In this document: positions 22,517 through 36,638 of the stretch, one piece after another
How the letters are laid out: every line of letters starts with the position of its first letter
How positions within the stretch are numbered: the stretch's first letter is position 1
DNA from: Nanobdellati archaeon
GTDB taxonomy: Archaea; Nanobdellota; Nanobdellia; Woesearchaeales; JAADFO01
Assembly (NCBI GenBank): GCA_013152815.1
Contig: JAADFO010000016.1
Location: 1 to 42,504 of the forward strand
Length of the DNA: 42,504 bases
Direction: 5' to 3'
Program-made: the position numbers and the translations under genes
Notes under the pieces: generated by a model
What the model saw: the letters and a program-made list of their open reading frames with translations, nothing else
What the model was told of the DNA's origin: nothing
Database searches by the model: none

Positions 22517-25234
22517 TCACCGACGGCCTCTTCCCGCTGTTGTCTTCTTCCCTGACCGCTTCGCCGCTTCTGTCTTCTGCACGACCTCGAGGGCGAGTCT
22601 CATCCTTTCGAGCGCCTTCTCATTCTCACGCTTATCGATGAAGAAGTCACGGAGAAGACCCATCTTCTTCACCAGCGGCCTGAGATCTTCCCGATCCGCG
22701 GCGATCTTCTGCAAGATGCCCTGGTCGAGTATCCTGGTGAGCAGTGCCAGTGAAGCCGACTCTGCTTCATGCACATCCTTGCCCTGGACCCGATGTTTCG
22801 CCAGCCGAATGAGCTCGTTGTAGAGAGCGGTGAGCTGGACCGATGCAAGAAGCTCGTCCTTCTGCCTGAACAGGTCATAGATCCTGCTGGTCAGCTGGAC
22901 CTCTACCTCCCGGATGGAAGTCTCCTCCATCCGTCGGAGCATGGCAAGCCGGTCGGCATGCCCCTGCAGAAGGTGTTTCATACGCAGCACTTTCCGGGAT
23001 TCCACATAGCCGAAATAGAGCAGCAACTCATAGAACAGCAGAGGGATGACCAGGATCAGGAAAAGGGGCAGCCATATCAATCGCTGGACCACATAGAGAC
23101 AGCTGCCGTAGAGCCAGAGATAGAGCGAGAATACCGAAAGGATGAACAGGAGGAAGCCTAAGAGAGATGTGAGACGCTTGGCACGCTGCTCAAGCCGCCC
23201 CTTTCGATAGACTCCAAGGCGGTACAGGGTATAGTTCATGACCAGCAGGATGAGAAAGAGCAGGAGGAAGAGCAAAGCGAAATAACGGAAGAACCTCAGG
23301 GGGAAGACCCGGCAGTCCTGCATGCAGCCGCAGCCTTCTCCTGCTGAGCAGATCCCGTCCCCGCAACCCACGAGACCAGGATGTTCAAGGAAAGGATAGA
23401 GCGGATATTGGGTGATGGGAGCTATGAGGCAGGCTGCACATGGCCCGCCGCAGTCGATGCCTTCCTCTCCCTGGTTCTGGATGCCGTCGCTGCAGGTGGG
23501 TGCAACACAGGCACGAACTTCTTCGGGCTTTTCCGGACCCTCGATCTTGAGGGACTGGCCAGACCTGAGCGCGTTGGAATGTTTCTCATCACACCTGCTG
23601 GAATCGGTGCATAGCCTATCCTGAGAACCTGCAGTGCAAGGTCCCCAGTCAGTACAGGTCCAGTTCAGCACACAGACACCGGGGATGTGCTGCTTCTTGA
23701 TGCCTGCTCCTTTGCTTCCGGAAGCGCTGGTGGCGCTCTGGCCAGAAGTCTCGCCCGTCGTGCTTTCCTGGGATTCGCCCGTGCCTTCGACGCCTCCGGT
23801 GTCACCGCCAACGCCGCCTGTGGCATCCCCTGCCTCGTCTCCTGTACCCGGGGGGCATGTCCCGCAGTCCTGGGGACAGGAATAGCAGGATTCACCGATG
23901 AGGACAGAGGAACAGATGTCATCCCCGCAGACAAGCGCAGGGAAGATGGTCATGACGATGGTCTCGGTCACGTTGTAGTAGGTGTCGGTAACTCCCAGAA
24001 TGATGCTGTGCTGGCCTTCCATGGCAGCGGACGGGACAAAGGATATCACCCCTGTCACGTTATCGATGGTGAAGAGCGAGGAATTGGTGAAGAAGGTCAG
24101 GGTATCATTGTCTGCATCGGTCGCATTGAGGTCAAGGTGCACACCCAGCCCCACATAGGCCTCCTGGTTCCCGATGGGACTGAGGATCGGGGGATGGTTG
24201 CTGAAAAGGATCGTCAAGAGGAAGGTTGCAGAGGTGCAGTTGTCGAAGGAGCCTGAATCGTCACAGGCAGTGATGTTGATGGAGTGGTTGCCTATCTGTT
24301 CATCAGCAGGGGTAAAATTTATCAGGCCGGTTGATGGAGAGATGTTGAACAGGGTGGAATTATCGAAATAGGTCAGCGTATCGCCGACATCGATGTCAGT
24401 AGCATTGATGTCATAGATGAAGAGGTCCCTCGCGCGGACGGTCCTGTTCTCAAGAGGCGGGTCGAAGAAGGGACGATCGTTGACGTTGACCACGATGAAG
24501 GTGATGTTCTTGGAATCGGTGAGCCCGAAGGCATCGGTCACGACGACGCTGATGGAATGGACGCCCACATCATCGTTGGTCGGTGTGAAGTTGATCAGCC
24601 CGTTCAGGGGATCGATGGTGAAGAACGTCGCGTTGGAACTGAAGGCATAGGGATCGTCGTTCGGATCGGTGGCATTCACATCATAGGTGTAATGGACATC
24701 TTCAGTGGAGTTGAGCAGGTCATCGATGGACAGGACAGGGGGATAGTTCCTGTCCAAAGAGACGAATTGGAAAGCGGCAGAGATCCAGGTGAAGTTGAAG
24801 AACCGTCGGGTGGGATTCCCATCGATGAAAAAGGTGATGTTCTCTCCGGTCACCGCTCCTTCGTCCACCGAAGTCCCTGCATCGTCTCCGTTGCAGGAAA
24901 GCAGCCCAAAATAGCCGTCGTGCACCATGGTGAAGGAACCGCAGAGCACCCCGTCGCCATCATAGGCAGTGATCATCGTTCCCGAAGAGACGACGCTTCC
25001 GTTCTCGGTGACATTTCCGTAGAACTCGGTCGCGATGGGAGGATATGCAGACACCGACAGGGAGAGGATGATAAGCAGGAGTGCAAGAGCAAGCAGGAGG
25101 GGTCTTCCTGACGTCATCCTTGTTCTCCCAAATGACCTGGAGGAAGCGAAGAACAGGGAGCGTCCTTGCTTCTTTCGGGGTGGGTTGTTGCCGTTCATTG
25201 GTGTGGCCATCTGCAGATCCTTAGACAATCTCAT
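22517..25234 (-). CDS. Large membrane-anchored surface protein: cadherin/He_PIG-like repeats, Cys-rich and thrombospondin-like segments, TMs, cytoplasmic coiled-coil
   Basis: Repeated 'LTYFDNSTLFNISPSTGLINFTPADEQIGNHSINITACD'; 'WTCTDWGPCTAGSQDRLC'; 'CSDGIQNQGEEGIDCGGPCAAC'; multiple hydrophobic segments; basic helical tail. Confidence 0.85.
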   Translation of the reverse strand: MRLSKDLQMATPMNGNNPPRKKQGRSLFFASSRSFGRTRMTSGRPLLLALALLLIILSLSVSAYPPIATEFYGNVTENGSVVSSGTMITAYDGDGVLCGSFTMVHDGYFGLLSCNGDDAGTSVDEGAVTGENITFFIDGNPTRRFFNFTWISAAFQFVSLDRNYPPVLSIDDLLNSTEDVHYTYDVNATDPNDDPYAFSSNATFFTIDPLNGLINFTPTNDDVGVHSISVVVTDAFGLTDSKNITFIVVNVNDRPFFDPPLENRTVRARDLFIYDINATDIDVGDTLTYFDNSTLFNISPSTGLINFTPADEQIGNHSINITACDDSGSFDNCTSATFLLTILFSNHPPILSPIGNQEAYVGLGVHLDLNATDADNDTLTFFTNSSLFTIDNVTGVISFVPSAAMEGQHSIILGVTDTYYNVTETIVMTIFPALVCGDDICSSVLIGESCYSCPQDCGTCPPGTGDEAGDATGGVGGDTGGVEGTGESQESTTGETSGQSATSASGSKGAGIKKQHIPGVCVLNWTCTDWGPCTAGSQDRLCTDSSRCDEKHSNALRSGQSLKIEGPEKPEEVRACVAPTCSDGIQNQGEEGIDCGGPCAACLIAPITQYPLYPFLEHPGLVGCGDGICSAGEGCGCMQDCRVFPLRFFRYFALLFLLLFLILLVMNYTLYRLGVYRKGRLEQRAKRLTSLLGFLLFILSVFSLYLWLYGSCLYVVQRLIWLPLFLILVIPLLFYELLLYFGYVESRKVLRMKHLLQGHADRLAMLRRMEETSIREVEVQLTSRIYDLFRQKDELLASVQLTALYNELIRLAKHRVQGKDVHEAESASLALLTRILDQGILQKIAADREDLRPLVKKMGLLRDFFIDKRENEKALERMRLALEVVQKTEAAKRSGKKTTAGRGRR

Positions 25235-25240
25235 CTCTTC

Positions 25241-28472: not shown

Positions 28473-29741
28473 TCATTCACGATGTCTGTTGTGCCTTGTC
28501 CGGTATCTTTTCCGTTCTCTCCGTATCCTGAAGAGGAGGAAGATGATGATGAAGAAGATGAGCACATAGATGAAAAGAGGGAGGATGTTGATGATGGTGG
28601 AGGTGATGATGCGAGGAGTGGGGTTGACATTGACGATGGTGCCCTTCTCGAAGGTCAATTTCCGGTTGTAGAGGACCTTGCCCGACACTTCATAGACCCC
28701 TGGCTTGTGGGGGACGAAGAACGTCTGCAGGTCAAGGGTCTCCTGAGGTTCTACGCGCAGCTCGTCAGATTCCAGGAGCTCGACGATGGTATCCTCTTTC
28801 TTCACCGTCCCCTTAAATCTCGCTGAGACGAAGCGTTCGCCCAGGTTGGTGAAACGGGCAGTGACAGGGATGGTCTCATTGACCAGAGCCCAGGTCTTCG
28901 CCGACACACTGTCCAAGGAGCCCTTGTCGACGATATCCCCTTTCCTGGCGACGTCGAAGGTGAGGAGACCAGAATAGCCGCAGGGTTCGACCTTCACAAA
29001 ACCCCAATATTGGCCTGGTTCAAGGTCGGTCGGAAGCTCCCTGACCTGAGAAGCGGTGACCGTAGGAAGGATCTCGGGTCCGAGGAAGTCAAAGGTGGTC
29101 ACCAGCTTCTCCTGGAAGCGGTCCCAGACATCGAGGGTGACCTTCGGCCTGATACGGACATTGCCCAGATTGATGACCTTTGAGGAGAAGAGCAGGGGAT
29201 ATCCTGCTTCGACAACAGGGAGGGTGATGCCGCCGACGACGCATCGCTTGATCTCCCGGCCGGTGATGCCCAGGTTGAGGCGTATGATGACCGAGGCACG
29301 AAGTGATGTCCCGACAGCACCGGTCGCACTGCCCAGGGGTTGGGAGATAAAGCGCACATAGCTGAGATATTGATCGCTGGAGATATCAGGAGGTGGCCGG
29401 ACGATGACCTTGACGCGGAAAGGCTTCGAACGGGACACGTTGAAGCGTAGATCGGCCGGTTCGAAGGAGAGCCAGTCTGAATAGTTTCCGATGAGTTCCC
29501 CTTCCACTTTGAGGGGTGTCGGGGAATTGGTGCTGATAAGGACATGATGCTCAGCATAGCCGTCACGGAGCATGTTGTCGAAGGAGAGGACGCCCGGACT
29601 CGCGCCGAAGGATATGGCCTCTGCGAACAGAGGAACAAAGAGGAAGAAAAGCAGGAAGAAAAGCAGGGGGGAGCGCATGATGGAGAAAAGCTTCAGAGGA
29701 TGTTTCCCCATCTGTCCAGGATGGCTGTTGTCCATGACCAT
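28473..29741 (-). CDS. Secreted beta-domain protein with C-terminal TM anchor
   Basis: Signal peptide; 'SFGASPGVLSFDNMLRDGYAEHHVLISTNSPTPLKVEGELIGNYSDW'; 'IINILPLFIYVLIFFIIIFLLFRIRRERKR'; TATA-like tttataaag on the minus strand close upstream. Confidence 0.83.
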   Translation of the reverse strand: MVMDNSHPGQMGKHPLKLFSIMRSPLLFFLLFFLFVPLFAEAISFGASPGVLSFDNMLRDGYAEHHVLISTNSPTPLKVEGELIGNYSDWLSFEPADLRFNVSRSKPFRVKVIVRPPPDISSDQYLSYVRFISQPLGSATGAVGTSLRASVIIRLNLGITGREIKRCVVGGITLPVVEAGYPLLFSSKVINLGNVRIRPKVTLDVWDRFQEKLVTTFDFLGPEILPTVTASQVRELPTDLEPGQYWGFVKVEPCGYSGLLTFDVARKGDIVDKGSLDSVSAKTWALVNETIPVTARFTNLGERFVSARFKGTVKKEDTIVELLESDELRVEPQETLDLQTFFVPHKPGVYEVSGKVLYNRKLTFEKGTIVNVNPTPRIITSTIINILPLFIYVLIFFIIIFLLFRIRRERKRYRTRHNRHRE

Positions 29742-29892
29742 GGTGATGCAAGACCGCCTTTATAAATCTTCACACACTGATTAACTGATTAATTAAGTAC
29801 ACAAATACATAACATGACGAACCACTATACTCATTTTATTGAATGATTCATTGAAACATTCTACGAGATACATTGGCTTTTTCGGGGTAGGC

Positions 29893-32014
29893 CTAGCCAT
29901 GGGATCCCGCCTTCTCGTCCTTGCCGAAGAGCTGTTTCCAGGAGAGCCGGTGATAGAACCGCATGGATGGCGCGAACATCTTCTTCTGGAATTCCTTCGG
30001 CAGTTTGCTGTAGATCTCCTTTATCTCACCATAGACCATGGCAGCAGAACGGGCATCTCCCTGATCGAGGAAACCGTAGCCCTTCTCGAAAAGCCGTCTC
30101 ACCGAAGAGATATTGACCGAACTGTGAAGCTGCAGGATGCGATCTTCATAGGAATGTCGTGTACCTGAAGAGAGGGTCCTGTAGATGACCTGTATCCTGA
30201 CATAGATGGCCCTGGCATGTTCAGGCCGTCCCTCCCTGAGCGCCTGGTACGCCTTCTTCAGTAATTGGTCCAGCTGTTCCTTCGCCTCCAGCTCTTCGGC
30301 AGGAAAAAGCCTGCGGGAGGAAGCAGAGCGGGTCGTGGCAGCAGCCTCGACAGCAGGGATCCTGGCTTCTGCCTTGTTCACGCTCTTGGTCTCACCAGGT
30401 GCTGCGGGCAGGACACCGCCAGAAGAGTCCGTACCAGACAAGGCACCGGATGGACCGGGAGACTTGCCGGTCAGGTCCTGAAGCTCGTCCAGCTCTTTGC
30501 GGAGCTCATCGTCGACATTCGGATGCGCCCCGGTCCTTGTCAGCCTTAGCCAGACATAATAGCTTACCAGGCCGAGGATGATCAGGACACCCAGGACCAC
30601 GAAGAAGATGGAAAGCGGACTGGTCCGGGTCTTGAGCACGCTCTTCCCGGTCACGCCGCCGAGGGAATCTTCGGCAGAGGCATGCGTTCCGCTCCTGCCG
30701 GCAGCATCAGTGCCGCCTGCCCTGTCGGCCCCGGGAGAAAGAGCCTCTTTGCCGGACAGGCCCATCCTGTCCATCACATCCTCAGACAGCAGGAGCGTGA
30801 CCGCCTTCTTGGCATCTTCAAAATCGGCGCTCTCGAAATGATAGGCCACATGGGAAGTGTAGCTGCCGAGCAAGACATAGGGCGTGTCGGCCGAGACAGC
30901 GTAGTCCTTGCCTTCCAGCTGGATGTGCGGCCCTGCCAGGGCGAGATCTGAAGGGAAGAGCTCTGCCATGAGCGACACGTCTTCGGGGCCTCCGATGTTC
31001 TTTTCCACGGTTATGAACTCCTTGGGGTCGCCATCAAGATAGGAGACCTGCAGCTCGGAGATGGTCTTGTTGACGGTGTAACTCCTAGCCTCCTGGGAGA
31101 TGAGCGTGAGGAACGCTGCCGACTGGTCAGCGGACAGGGAGAACCGGTGTTCGACAAAGGATCGTGCCGTCTCCATCATGGCCGTCGTCAGGATCTCCTG
31201 AAGCTCGCTCCGCTTGACCAGCTGCATGTCTTGGGGAGTCAAAAGACGGAGCTTCTTGAGTTCCAGCTCTTTCTTCGCGAGCTCGCTCCCTATGGATGCA
31301 GGGTCAACGAATTTGAGGGCGTCGAGAGAACCCCTCATCTCCCTGAGCGTCAGGAGCGAGGATTCCAGCGTCGAGAAGATATCCATCCTCTCGGCAGAGG
31401 ACTGAAGATCAGACGGCTTCTGATCAAAGGTATCCTGGGCAGCCTCAGTGTCGAGCAGGGTCTGATCGACAGACCGGATGAGTCCTTCGACCTTCGCAAG
31501 CCCTGATTTCGGAAGGGTGATTGTCCTGTTGACCTGTGGCACAAAGACCTTTGTCGATTCCTCTTCTGCACGGGGTGTCTTGATCTCTTTCTCGGGTGAG
31601 AGCACACCGAGATTTCCGGCCTGATCGACAGCTGCGACCCGATAATAGTAGGTCTTGCCATCGGTGATGAAGCGGTCCAGGAATTCCATCTGCTTGGTGT
31701 TCGTATAGAGGTCAGCATAGCTGACGTGCGGTTCAGTGGACCGATAGAGGTTGTAGTGGTCCACATCGTCATCCTGGCTGAACCAGAGAAGCCGCACCGT
31801 GCTATCGTTCTGGAGCGTGACCTTGAACCCGTCAGGCATCCCGGGAGATTCTCCGTCGACGATGAACAGCCTCCCGCTCTCGATCTGTGAGCCGACGATG
31901 CCCTGGGTGCTCGTAGCAGAGAACGAGAAGGAACCGATACGCCGGGCACTGTTATCAGGGAGGATGGCATAGCCGCTGAAGGAGGAACCGAACCCTTCGA
32001 GGCTGACCGTGTGT
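29893..32014 (-). CDS. 3' part of a frameshifted surface protein: FnIII-like domain, TM, cytoplasmic helical repeat region
   Basis: Frame continues upstream of the track start (31839) as TVSLEGFGSSFSGYAILPDNSARRIGSFSFSATSTQGIVGSQIESGRLFIVDGESPGMPDGFKV...; 'VDHYNLYRSTEP...YYYRVAAVDQAGN'. Confidence 0.82.
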
Positions 32015-33128
32015 GAGTGGAGGGAGCATCATCAAAACGGTAGGACAGTGATGGTATCCCCTGGACCGCCTTGTTGGTGGTGAGGCTGATGTCGAGCAGG
32101 CCCGGTCTCAGGGGAGAGGCCGGCGTAATGGTTATGGATGCGATGGGAGGCGTCACCACGGTGAACTGTACGACGTCGGTGGCGAGGTTGCCTGCGGGAT
32201 CCTTGCAGGCCGCATAGAGCGTGTAGGAACCCTCCTGGAGGGACAGCCGGTCAGAGTGGCCCTTGTTCAGGTAACCGAAGGAATGCTCCATCTGGTCAAA
32301 GGCAGAATGGGTGAACGAATAGCGGCAGTCGGTCTCCTCGTCGGTGGTCACGTTGATGAGCACATCGGTGGTGGTCAACGTGCCAGAGGGAAGCAGGCTG
32401 ATGAAATGGGGCGGCCGGGTGTCCACCGTGAAGGACAGGACGTCTGAGGTCGGATTCTGGTTGCCTCCGGTGTCTTCACACCGCACATAGTAGAGATAGG
32501 ACCCATCGCCCAGGACCTGCGTATAAGAATGGGTCTTACTCTCGCCAACCATATCGAAGAGCATGAGATCATAGGGCACATCATAGGTATGGAAACGGCA
32601 GTGGGCAGCATCGGTGGTGTTCACGACAAGCAGCACCTCTGAAGAATCCACCTGATCCCGGGGAGCCATCGCCTCGATGAAGGGGAAGATGCCGTTGACC
32701 TTCAGGAGCGCCGTCGCATCGCCGATGCTCGATGCATGCATGGACGTGCCGTTCTCCACCCAGCTGTAGTTGAGGCTCAACAGATGGTCTCCTGCTTGGG
32801 ATCCGCTGCAGAGGATGTTCCATGGCGGCGTGGAAGAGATCAGCTGCCCAGGACCCAGCGAACCCAGGCCGAACCCGTTGGAACCCACGGAGAGCTGCTT
32901 GTCAGATACCAGAGAGACCGTGAGGTTGTTGATGGTGGTGTTGCCGTCGTTCCGGACATTGATGGCCAGGGAAAGGGCACTGTCCGGTCCCGGAGAGCAG
33001 ATGGTGGATGAGGAGAGATAGAGCATCTCTGTGGAGACGGCGCCTGAAGGCAAGGCCATCATCAGGACAAACAGCAGGGACGAGAGGAGGAAGAACGGTA
33101 CTGTGGCTGCTGAGGTCCTTCGTCTCAT
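32009..33128 (-). CDS. 5' part of the same surface protein: signal peptide and Ig-like domains, out of frame after ~32010
   Basis: MRRRTSAATVPFFLLSSLLFVLMMALPSGAVS...; sensible to 'LSYRFDDAPSTH', then the frame becomes low-complexity Arg/Ser/Pro-rich to 31350. Confidence 0.82.
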
Positions 33129-33268
33129 GATCTCCTCCTCAGCCGTTTCTCTATCGCTTTGACCAGATAGTCGTTCAGGGTGAGTCCTTTTATCGCAGCG
33201 ATGACCTTGACCTGCAGATGGATCTTCTGGTCGAGAGGGATGTTGATCCGCTTCCTGGCCGGCTTCAT
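33125..33268 (-). CDS. 47-aa ribbon-helix-helix-like protein (MKPARKRINIPLDQKIHLQVKVIAAIKGLTLNDYLVKAIEKRLRRRS); absent from the supplied track
   Basis: ATGA overlaps at both ends; RHH pattern xINIxLDxxxHxxxKxIAAxKGxTLxxYL. Confidence 0.78.
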   Translation of the reverse strand: MKPARKRINIPLDQKIHLQVKVIAAIKGLTLNDYLVKAIEKRLRRRS

Positions 33269-33447
33269 CCTATCAGCCTCCTGACCAGAGTCTTATCCTC
33301 TGCCACCTGCTCATCGACCAGTTCGGCCACCAGTTCCTGCAGGGTCTTCCCCTCCATGGCAGCGACGACCTTCAGCTGTCGGTGAAGGGGTTCATCGAGG
33401 AAGATGTTCACCCGACCGGTCTGTTGGACAGCAGGATGATCTCTCAT
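33265..33447 (-). CDS. 60-aa ribbon-helix-helix-like protein
   Basis: 'RVNIFLDEPLHRQLKVVAAMEGKTLQELVAELVDEQV'; ATGA overlap with 33125..33268. Confidence 0.78.
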   Translation of the reverse strand: MRDHPAVQQTGRVNIFLDEPLHRQLKVVAAMEGKTLQELVAELVDEQVAEDKTLVRRLIG

Positions 33448-33596
33448 AGGATATCCTCCAACAGGCGGATGTCCTTGTCGAGCGTCCTTTTGAGGATCTC
33501 ATGATAGAATTCAGAAAGAGTGATACCTCTGAGGGCACAGATGATCTTCGCCTGCCTATGCAGCTCCTTGTCAAGCCGGATGTTGACGTTGGCCAA
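33444..33596 (-). CDS. 50-aa ribbon-helix-helix-like protein (LANVNIRLDKELHRQAKIICALRGITLSEFYHEILKRTLDKDIRLLEDIL); absent from the supplied track
   Basis: TTG start; stop overlaps the ATG of 33447 (ATGA); aligns with its neighbours. Confidence 0.7.
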   Translation of the reverse strand: MANVNIRLDKELHRQAKIICALRGITLSEFYHEILKRTLDKDIRLLEDIL

Positions 33597-33762
33597 TTTT
33601 GTGTGTCGTCGCCTGTCTCTTGATATGGTCCTGAAGGGCGTCTCTGAGGTATTCCTGCAAGTTCAATCCTTTGACTGCGGCTATGGCCTTCGCTCTCGCA
33701 TGGTCATGAGGGTCAAGCCGCAGGTTGATACGTTGTCCAGCCAAGGTGATGATATTTATCAT
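33571..33762 (-). CDS. 63-aa ribbon-helix-helix-like protein, first gene of the chain
   Basis: 'QRINLRLDPHDHARAKAIAAVKGLNLQEYLRDALQDHIK'. Confidence 0.8.
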   Translation of the reverse strand: MINIITLAGQRINLRLDPHDHARAKAIAAVKGLNLQEYLRDALQDHIKRQATTHKIGQRQHPA

Positions 33763-33812
33763 ATTTATGATTTATATATCTTTCTGTTATAAATCTTATA
33801 AGTGATTTATAT
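33749..33812 (-). promoter_or_regulatory. Promoter/operator region of the RHH chain: ATGATATTTATCAT dyad over the start codon, TGATTTATAT direct repeats (33768-33777, 33803-33812), TATAAATC(8)GATTTATA dyad (33788-33811)
   Basis: Read directly. Confidence 0.6.
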
Positions 33813-36410: not shown

Positions 36411-36638
36411 ATGCTAGCGTACGTCATGATATCGCTGAAGAACCCGAAAGAAGATGTCATCATGGACAAGCTCCTCGAACATGAGGAAGTGAAGGAAGCC
36501 CACATCGTCTTCGGAGAATGGGACCTGATGGCAAAGATCGAATCAGAGAACCCGGAAAGTCTCGCCACCTTTGTCATGGAGAACGTCCGAAATCTCTCAG
36601 AGGTCAAGCTCTCAAGCACACTCATCGTGGCCAAATAA
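36411..36638 (+). CDS. Stand-alone Lrp/AsnC ligand-binding (RAM) domain protein
   Basis: 75 aa 'AYVMISLKNPKEDVIMDKLLEHEEVKEAHIVFGEWDLMAKIES'; SD gaggaggtg; no HTH. Confidence 0.88.
   Translation: MLAYVMISLKNPKEDVIMDKLLEHEEVKEAHIVFGEWDLMAKIESENPESLATFVMENVRNLSEVKLSSTLIVAK

Follow-up and report, generated by a model that had tools for sequence, protein, structure and literature searches.

A four-gene ribbon-helix-helix chain heading a surface-protein operon in a Nanobdellati archaeon, and its candidate role as an autorepressor cassette

The gene chain and its surface-protein operon

The window, which is the whole stretch of 42,504 nucleotides analysed here, carries on its minus strand an operon in which four small ribbon-helix-helix (RHH) genes precede a split surface-protein gene and a further gene. 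In the feature list below, G001 is the one other genome of the same family that was compared, from a different genus, class A denotes loci with a surface gene of the window's type directly after the RHH genes, and the TATA box and BRE-like stretch are sequence readings.

33779..33784, minus strand: BRE-like, A-rich sequence GAAAGA, assigned by its position before the TATA box
33770..33778, minus strand: TATA box at the operon's promoter, TATATAAAT, with the same geometry in G001 and many class A loci
33749..33771, minus strand: putative operator ATCATaaatATGATaaatATCAT, three ATCAT/ATGAT half-sites at 9-bp spacing, an array that is the same in G001
33571..33744, minus strand: RHH1, 57 aa from TTG (63 aa, 33571-33762, if ATG 33762 is used)
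33444..33596, minus strand: RHH2, 50 aa, TTG start, 26-nt overlap with RHH1
33265..33447, minus strand: RHH3, 60 aa, ATGA overlap with RHH2
33125..33268, minus strand: RHH4, 47 aa, ATGA overlap with RHH3
31350..33128, minus strand: 5' part of the surface gene, overlapping RHH4 by ATGA, with a leader-like N-terminus and Ig-like Big_13 repeats; the homologous reading ends near 32010
29893..32028, minus strand: 3' part of the surface gene, read in a different frame, with a weak fn3 match, a hydrophobic membrane-like segment and a C-terminal tail
28473..29759, minus strand: next gene of the operon, at most 428 aa, with 44% identity to its counterpart further downstream in G001 and 42% to that in G129

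All four frames of the original prediction are present at 33125-33762 with the residues and strand it gave, and the overlaps are as it described, namely 26 nt between RHH1 and RHH2 and a 4-nt ATGA at each of the other three junctions, that with the surface gene included. The split of the surface gene is likewise seen in the sequence: its frame changes near 32010 (31990-32040), at ccactcacacacgg, with same-frame homology in four other loci (L047, L056, L062 and L063), and a single intact ORF of 998 aa stands in its place in G001. The change of frame may reflect an indel, an assembly error or a genuine break. Programmed frameshifting is less probable than an indel or an error of assembly, as no slippery heptamer was seen at the junction and the gene is uninterrupted in G001. 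A related-locus search with the 3' surface ORF gave no matches. Elsewhere in the window, a lone Lrp/AsnC ligand-binding (RAM) domain ORF of 75 aa without the DNA-binding part lies at 36411-36638.

An RHH profile of 82 sequences from other genomes, the window's own having been taken out, was run against the 1101 ORFs of the window that are 20 aa or longer. It matched only RHH1-4 (E = 4e-18, 2.4e-16, 1.3e-14 and 7.3e-12; next-best ORF 3.4), and by this search the four ORFs are not a product of chance. Their alignment contains the invariant residues N, LD, H, K, A, G and L, and RHH2-4 share only 28-43% identity with RHH1. The AlphaFold model of RHH4, built on a 32-row alignment (pLDDT 89.7), has an extended N-terminal segment followed by helices at residues 14-26 and 31-46, and that of RHH2 (pLDDT 90) likewise has two helices behind an extended N-terminal segment, so that both models are of RHH type, as originally proposed. 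In a Foldseek search of the PDB with the RHH4 model, the top matches were RHH proteins (Rv0298 antitoxin, CopASO, Sulfolobus ORF56, Arc, PutA and CopG), with probabilities of 0.95-1.00 and TM scores of about 0.7-0.8, but with E-values of only 0.1-0.7 for this 47-residue query. Among solved proteins, ParG (1p94) is nearest to the family profile (E = 1.1e-7), followed by ParD (3e-4) and 56B (1.5e-3). The Pfam matches of RHH1-4 are nearly all to RHH families and all below the gathering cut-offs, the nearest being RHH_10 (26.5 versus 27), and none of the four reaches the cut-off of the NikA-like, RHH_10, ParG, HicB or ParD family. RHH1-4 are thus assigned by predicted fold to the RHH (MetJ/Arc/CopG-type) superfamily, outside any single Pfam RHH family, an identity which is borne out by profile, predicted fold and conservation.

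RHH-headed operons across the order

An RHH profile matched in 110 of 353 genomes of the order. Where records recovered with the class A family bear a name, it is mostly Candidatus Woesearchaeota and sometimes Nanoarchaeota. The 101 loci compared were chosen from the matches with tandem genes first, and so the counts of one RHH gene in 58, two in 40 and four in 3 are not unbiased frequencies. Operon classes were defined by clustering the gene that follows the RHH genes, the labels A, B and C being our own. Class A comprises 38 loci (34 single genes, two pairs and two chains of four). Class B, in which a type II/IV secretion ATPase follows, comprises 4 loci, all with pairs, while class C, in which a protein of about 1240 aa follows, comprises 38 loci (31 pairs, 6 singles and one chain of four). 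The fourth group, drawn from other orders in the taxonomic class, has 7 loci with a single RHH gene before an 'RGQVT.FII' protein. The commonest junction gap is -4, for RHH to RHH and RHH to next gene alike. Judged from these sequence neighbourhoods, three types of operon in the order, with surface or secretion genes, have members of this RHH family at their head.

Several of these loci deserve separate mention. The window's own genome contains a second RHH pair (L049, G000:C27:13788-14062), which heads the operon of a class B ATPase (Pfam T2SSE, E = 4.6e-15) and has upstream sites that are TAAGTTA-like, not ATCAT-like. Pairs head the operons of the approximately 1240-aa protein in L050-L052, L055, L057-L060 and L112-L131, as do four genes in L046, and the promoters of these loci as a group contain AACTT half-sites at 9-bp spacing. 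This class C protein is related to a 907-aa Ig-domain protein (Big_9, He_PIG) at 22520-25240 of the window, which is a tblastn homologue of genes near class C RHH pairs elsewhere; no RHH gene was found adjoining it in the window. In the other orders (L132-L136, L138 and L139), the single RHH gene shares 4 nt (in L135, 14 nt) with the gene of a membrane-like protein which starts around RGQVTxFIIxGI, and TAACTTA sites mostly lie upstream.

In the G001 chain, the four consecutive RHH genes overlap by 4 nt at all three of their junctions (one GTGA and two ATGA), and a further 4-nt overlap leads into the 998-aa orthologue of the surface gene. The four-gene chain is thus conserved, as the same genes and overlaps precede an intact surface-gene orthologue and none of the four frames has been lost in this relative. 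The G001 copies have diverged from one another as in the window; that all eight frames are intact despite wide protein divergence points to selection on the copies. The best scores between the two chains cross, at 116 for RHH4 with the second gene of G001 and 94 for RHH1 with the first. One origin for all eight members is neither supported nor rejected (p-AU 0.38). A DNA-level search of relatives with the locus gave short AT-rich matches in the promoter region only. The original prediction named no known chain of this kind, and no published chain of four RHH genes was found in the open-access literature. The window's chain is nevertheless not an isolated case: G001 has the same one, G140 has another at the head of a different operon type, and pairs occur commonly across the order.

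The operon context also bears on two other identities. Antitoxins of toxin-antitoxin modules, to whose ParD, HicB and RelB families RHH1-4 have weak matches, are highly improbable, as the RHH genes are followed in class A (38 loci) by a surface-protein gene, in class C (38 loci) by a gene for an Ig-repeat-type protein and in class B by one for a secretion ATPase. The type II antitoxin was rejected for want of a toxin gene beside the RHH genes. The context is kept across many families of one order, which speaks against plasmid-partition (ParG/omega-type) proteins or mobile-element remnants, even though ParG is the closest solved sequence and the operator array recalls the repeat arrays of RHH-ParB (PMC9499535). 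This second identity is scarcely credible, and a ParFG/RHH-ParB partition cassette was rejected, as a Pfam scan of the operon and neighbour genes found no ParA-type gene. RHH4 had no match among plasmids and one weak protein match only among phages. Linkage to ftsZ2, as in the CdrS-CdrL system, was not found at the locus, where the linked gene encodes a surface protein.

The promoter array and the proposed autorepression

The operator array ATCATaaatATGATaaatATCAT begins inside the TATA box and ends 4 nt before TTG 33744, and the array of G001 at the same place reads ATCATaaatATGATgtttATCAT. The 1.49-Mb genome contains the triple ATCAT array only once, and this copy lies between TATA box and RHH1 start codon. 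With one mismatch allowed, 0.02 occurrences would be expected in the window. Archaeal transcription generally starts 25-27 nt downstream of the TATA box, and from a TATA box at 33770-33778 the start should fall at about 33747-33750. The first RHH gene of G001 opens with MAGQRIN directly behind the operator, and the equivalent point in the window is TTG 33744. This TTG (LAGQRIN...) is probably the true start of RHH1 rather than ATG 33762, since 33745-33771 corresponds to the conserved operator and core promoter; ATG 33762 probably sits within the operator and is not a start codon.

Half-sites were counted in the 130 nt upstream of the loci and compared with shuffles; these loci come from many families, but related ones are not independent and the figures are not exact probabilities. 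TATCAT is enriched upstream of class A (42 versus 9.4 in shuffles, maximum 20) and TAACTTA upstream of classes B and C (34 versus 2.9, maximum 9), while TATCAT was absent upstream of 18 class B/C loci and occurred once each in two class C loci examined later. The distances between ATCAT pairs in class A are multiples of 9 bp in 65 of 84 cases (9.0 expected if flat), and those between AACTT pairs in class C in 80 of 151 (16.2 expected). At spacings of 9 or 18 bp there are 44 ATCAT pairs in class A, where shuffles give 0.32, and 41 AACTT pairs in class C, where they give 0.42, with at most 3 in either set of shuffles. The operator is not universal, as such pairs are present in only 15 of the 38 class A loci and the GC-rich members of family f2 have none. 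The RHH genes of the window do have repeated half-sites at their own promoter, in the form of an operator predicted at sequence level, as befits the RHH superfamily.

The four ORFs are probably a duplicated, dedicated autorepressor cassette which occludes its own promoter. RHH dimers from the first four cistrons, made together through translational coupling by the 4-nt overlaps, would bind the 9-bp-spaced array between the TATA box and the transcription start and block the assembly of TBP, TFB and RNA polymerase into a pre-initiation complex. The operon's own products would thereby be kept down, namely a surface protein of Ig/fn3 type with a membrane anchor and a further protein predicted to belong to the envelope. 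The starting point is what the locus displays, namely the frames, the fold, the conservation of chain and operon, and an array with its position and uniqueness. The proposal is made because of the placement of the array and the published mode of archaeal viral RHH repressors, as promoter occlusion is the established means of autorepression by SvtR, AvtR and F55, proteins that oligomerise along the DNA at the promoters of their own genes (PMC5569661). From these we infer binding and repression by the cassette, together with the composition of its dimers and a signal that would relieve it. AvtR can also activate (PMC5569661), which counts against a purely repressive reading, and RHH1-4 may have further targets through single or degenerate sites.

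The number of copies and comparison with known systems

The co-translated layout that was originally proposed is supported by the frames, the overlaps and their conservation in G001. The accompanying suggestion of combinatorial heterodimers is possible but somewhat unlikely; in the form weighed here, the paralogs would pair, and their differing strand residues would read different half-sites or grade repression. The strand residues, which we take from known RHH complexes to be DNA-facing, are R-N-R, N-N-R, R-N-F and R-N-P in the window's four proteins, so that the third position varies among the paralogs; in the wider set N-N-E predominates in class C, R-N-E in class B and in the fourth group, and class A has R-N followed by a variable residue. 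Four diverged paralogs are intact in two genera, 4-nt overlaps favour matched synthesis, pairs are usual in class B (4/4) and class C (31/38), and the first and second members in class C cluster by position (14 changes versus 20.7 shuffled, reached by 0-1 of 500). Four copies are nevertheless not required for the basic function, as 34 of the 38 class A operons manage with single genes. The first and second members of class C pairs do not form single clades and some pairs are near-identical, which indicates that duplications recur. In the class A tree, as trees on about 50 columns place them, the chain copies have long branches relative to the singles, which fits diverged and possibly partnered copies but also relaxed constraint.

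Near-identical pairs (L050 and L058) and three very similar copies in L046 fit dosage or recent duplication instead. If dosage only were at work, the duplicates would add to the amount of one repressor activity and be otherwise redundant, which is quite unlikely for the window, where RHH2-4 share so little identity with RHH1 (28-43%) and the strand residues differ, and for G001, whose copies have likewise diverged. A fuller form of the autorepressor proposal, itself unlikely, would have homo- and heterodimers with differing half-site preferences load in order on the 9-bp array, and a lineage-wide ATCAT/AACTT code separate the cassettes. If true, it would mean graded or combinatorial control of surface operons, with several cassettes in one cell kept apart. 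An RHH family heading three operon types with an exact 9-bp half-site register would provide a concrete, testable regulatory code, and the occurrence in nature of one, two or four paralogs per operon offers a direct way into the question of RHH heterodimers.

In the open-access literature, no description was found of RHH four-gene chains or RHH-headed surface operons in these archaea, of papers joining Woesearchaeota with ribbon-helix-helix proteins, or of the regulation of surface proteins or pili in these uncultured DPANN archaea, and the main text of an archaeal type IV pili census contains no RHH or CopG regulator (PMC4858521). RHH autorepression is known already, as are two-gene precedents (cdrL-cdrS and gp29/gp30), while for a chain of four no prior description was found. 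SvtR, AvtR and F55 are likewise small RHH proteins, and, as proposed for the window's chain, they repress their own promoters near the TATA box or transcription start, some via repeated sites; the AvtR gene gp29 adjoins another predicted RHH gene, gp30 (PMC5569661). They differ from the window's chain in being viral, in having no four-gene chains and other half-sites, and in lacking a tie to surface operons. In haloarchaeal cdrL-cdrS-ftsZ2, two RHH genes likewise precede a structural gene, and CdrL has its one binding place upstream of cdrS-ftsZ2. The system differs in that it governs cell division and CdrL has an extra zinc ribbon, the parts of the source consulted describe no 9-bp array, and CdrS is there reported missing from DPANN (PMC7439475). 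Dimers of the pSM19035 RHH-ParB bind to arrays of short repeats overlapping promoters, where the repeats are contiguous and of 7 bp versus the 5-bp sites at 9-bp spacing in the window (PMC9499535). Unlike the window's chain, ParG and this RHH-ParB are partition proteins encoded by single genes and have a ParA partner. MetJ loads cooperatively on tandem met boxes, with repeats of 8 bp. MetJ, CopG and Arc have the RHH fold in common with the window's proteins, but are single-gene homodimers of bacterial, phage or plasmid origin.
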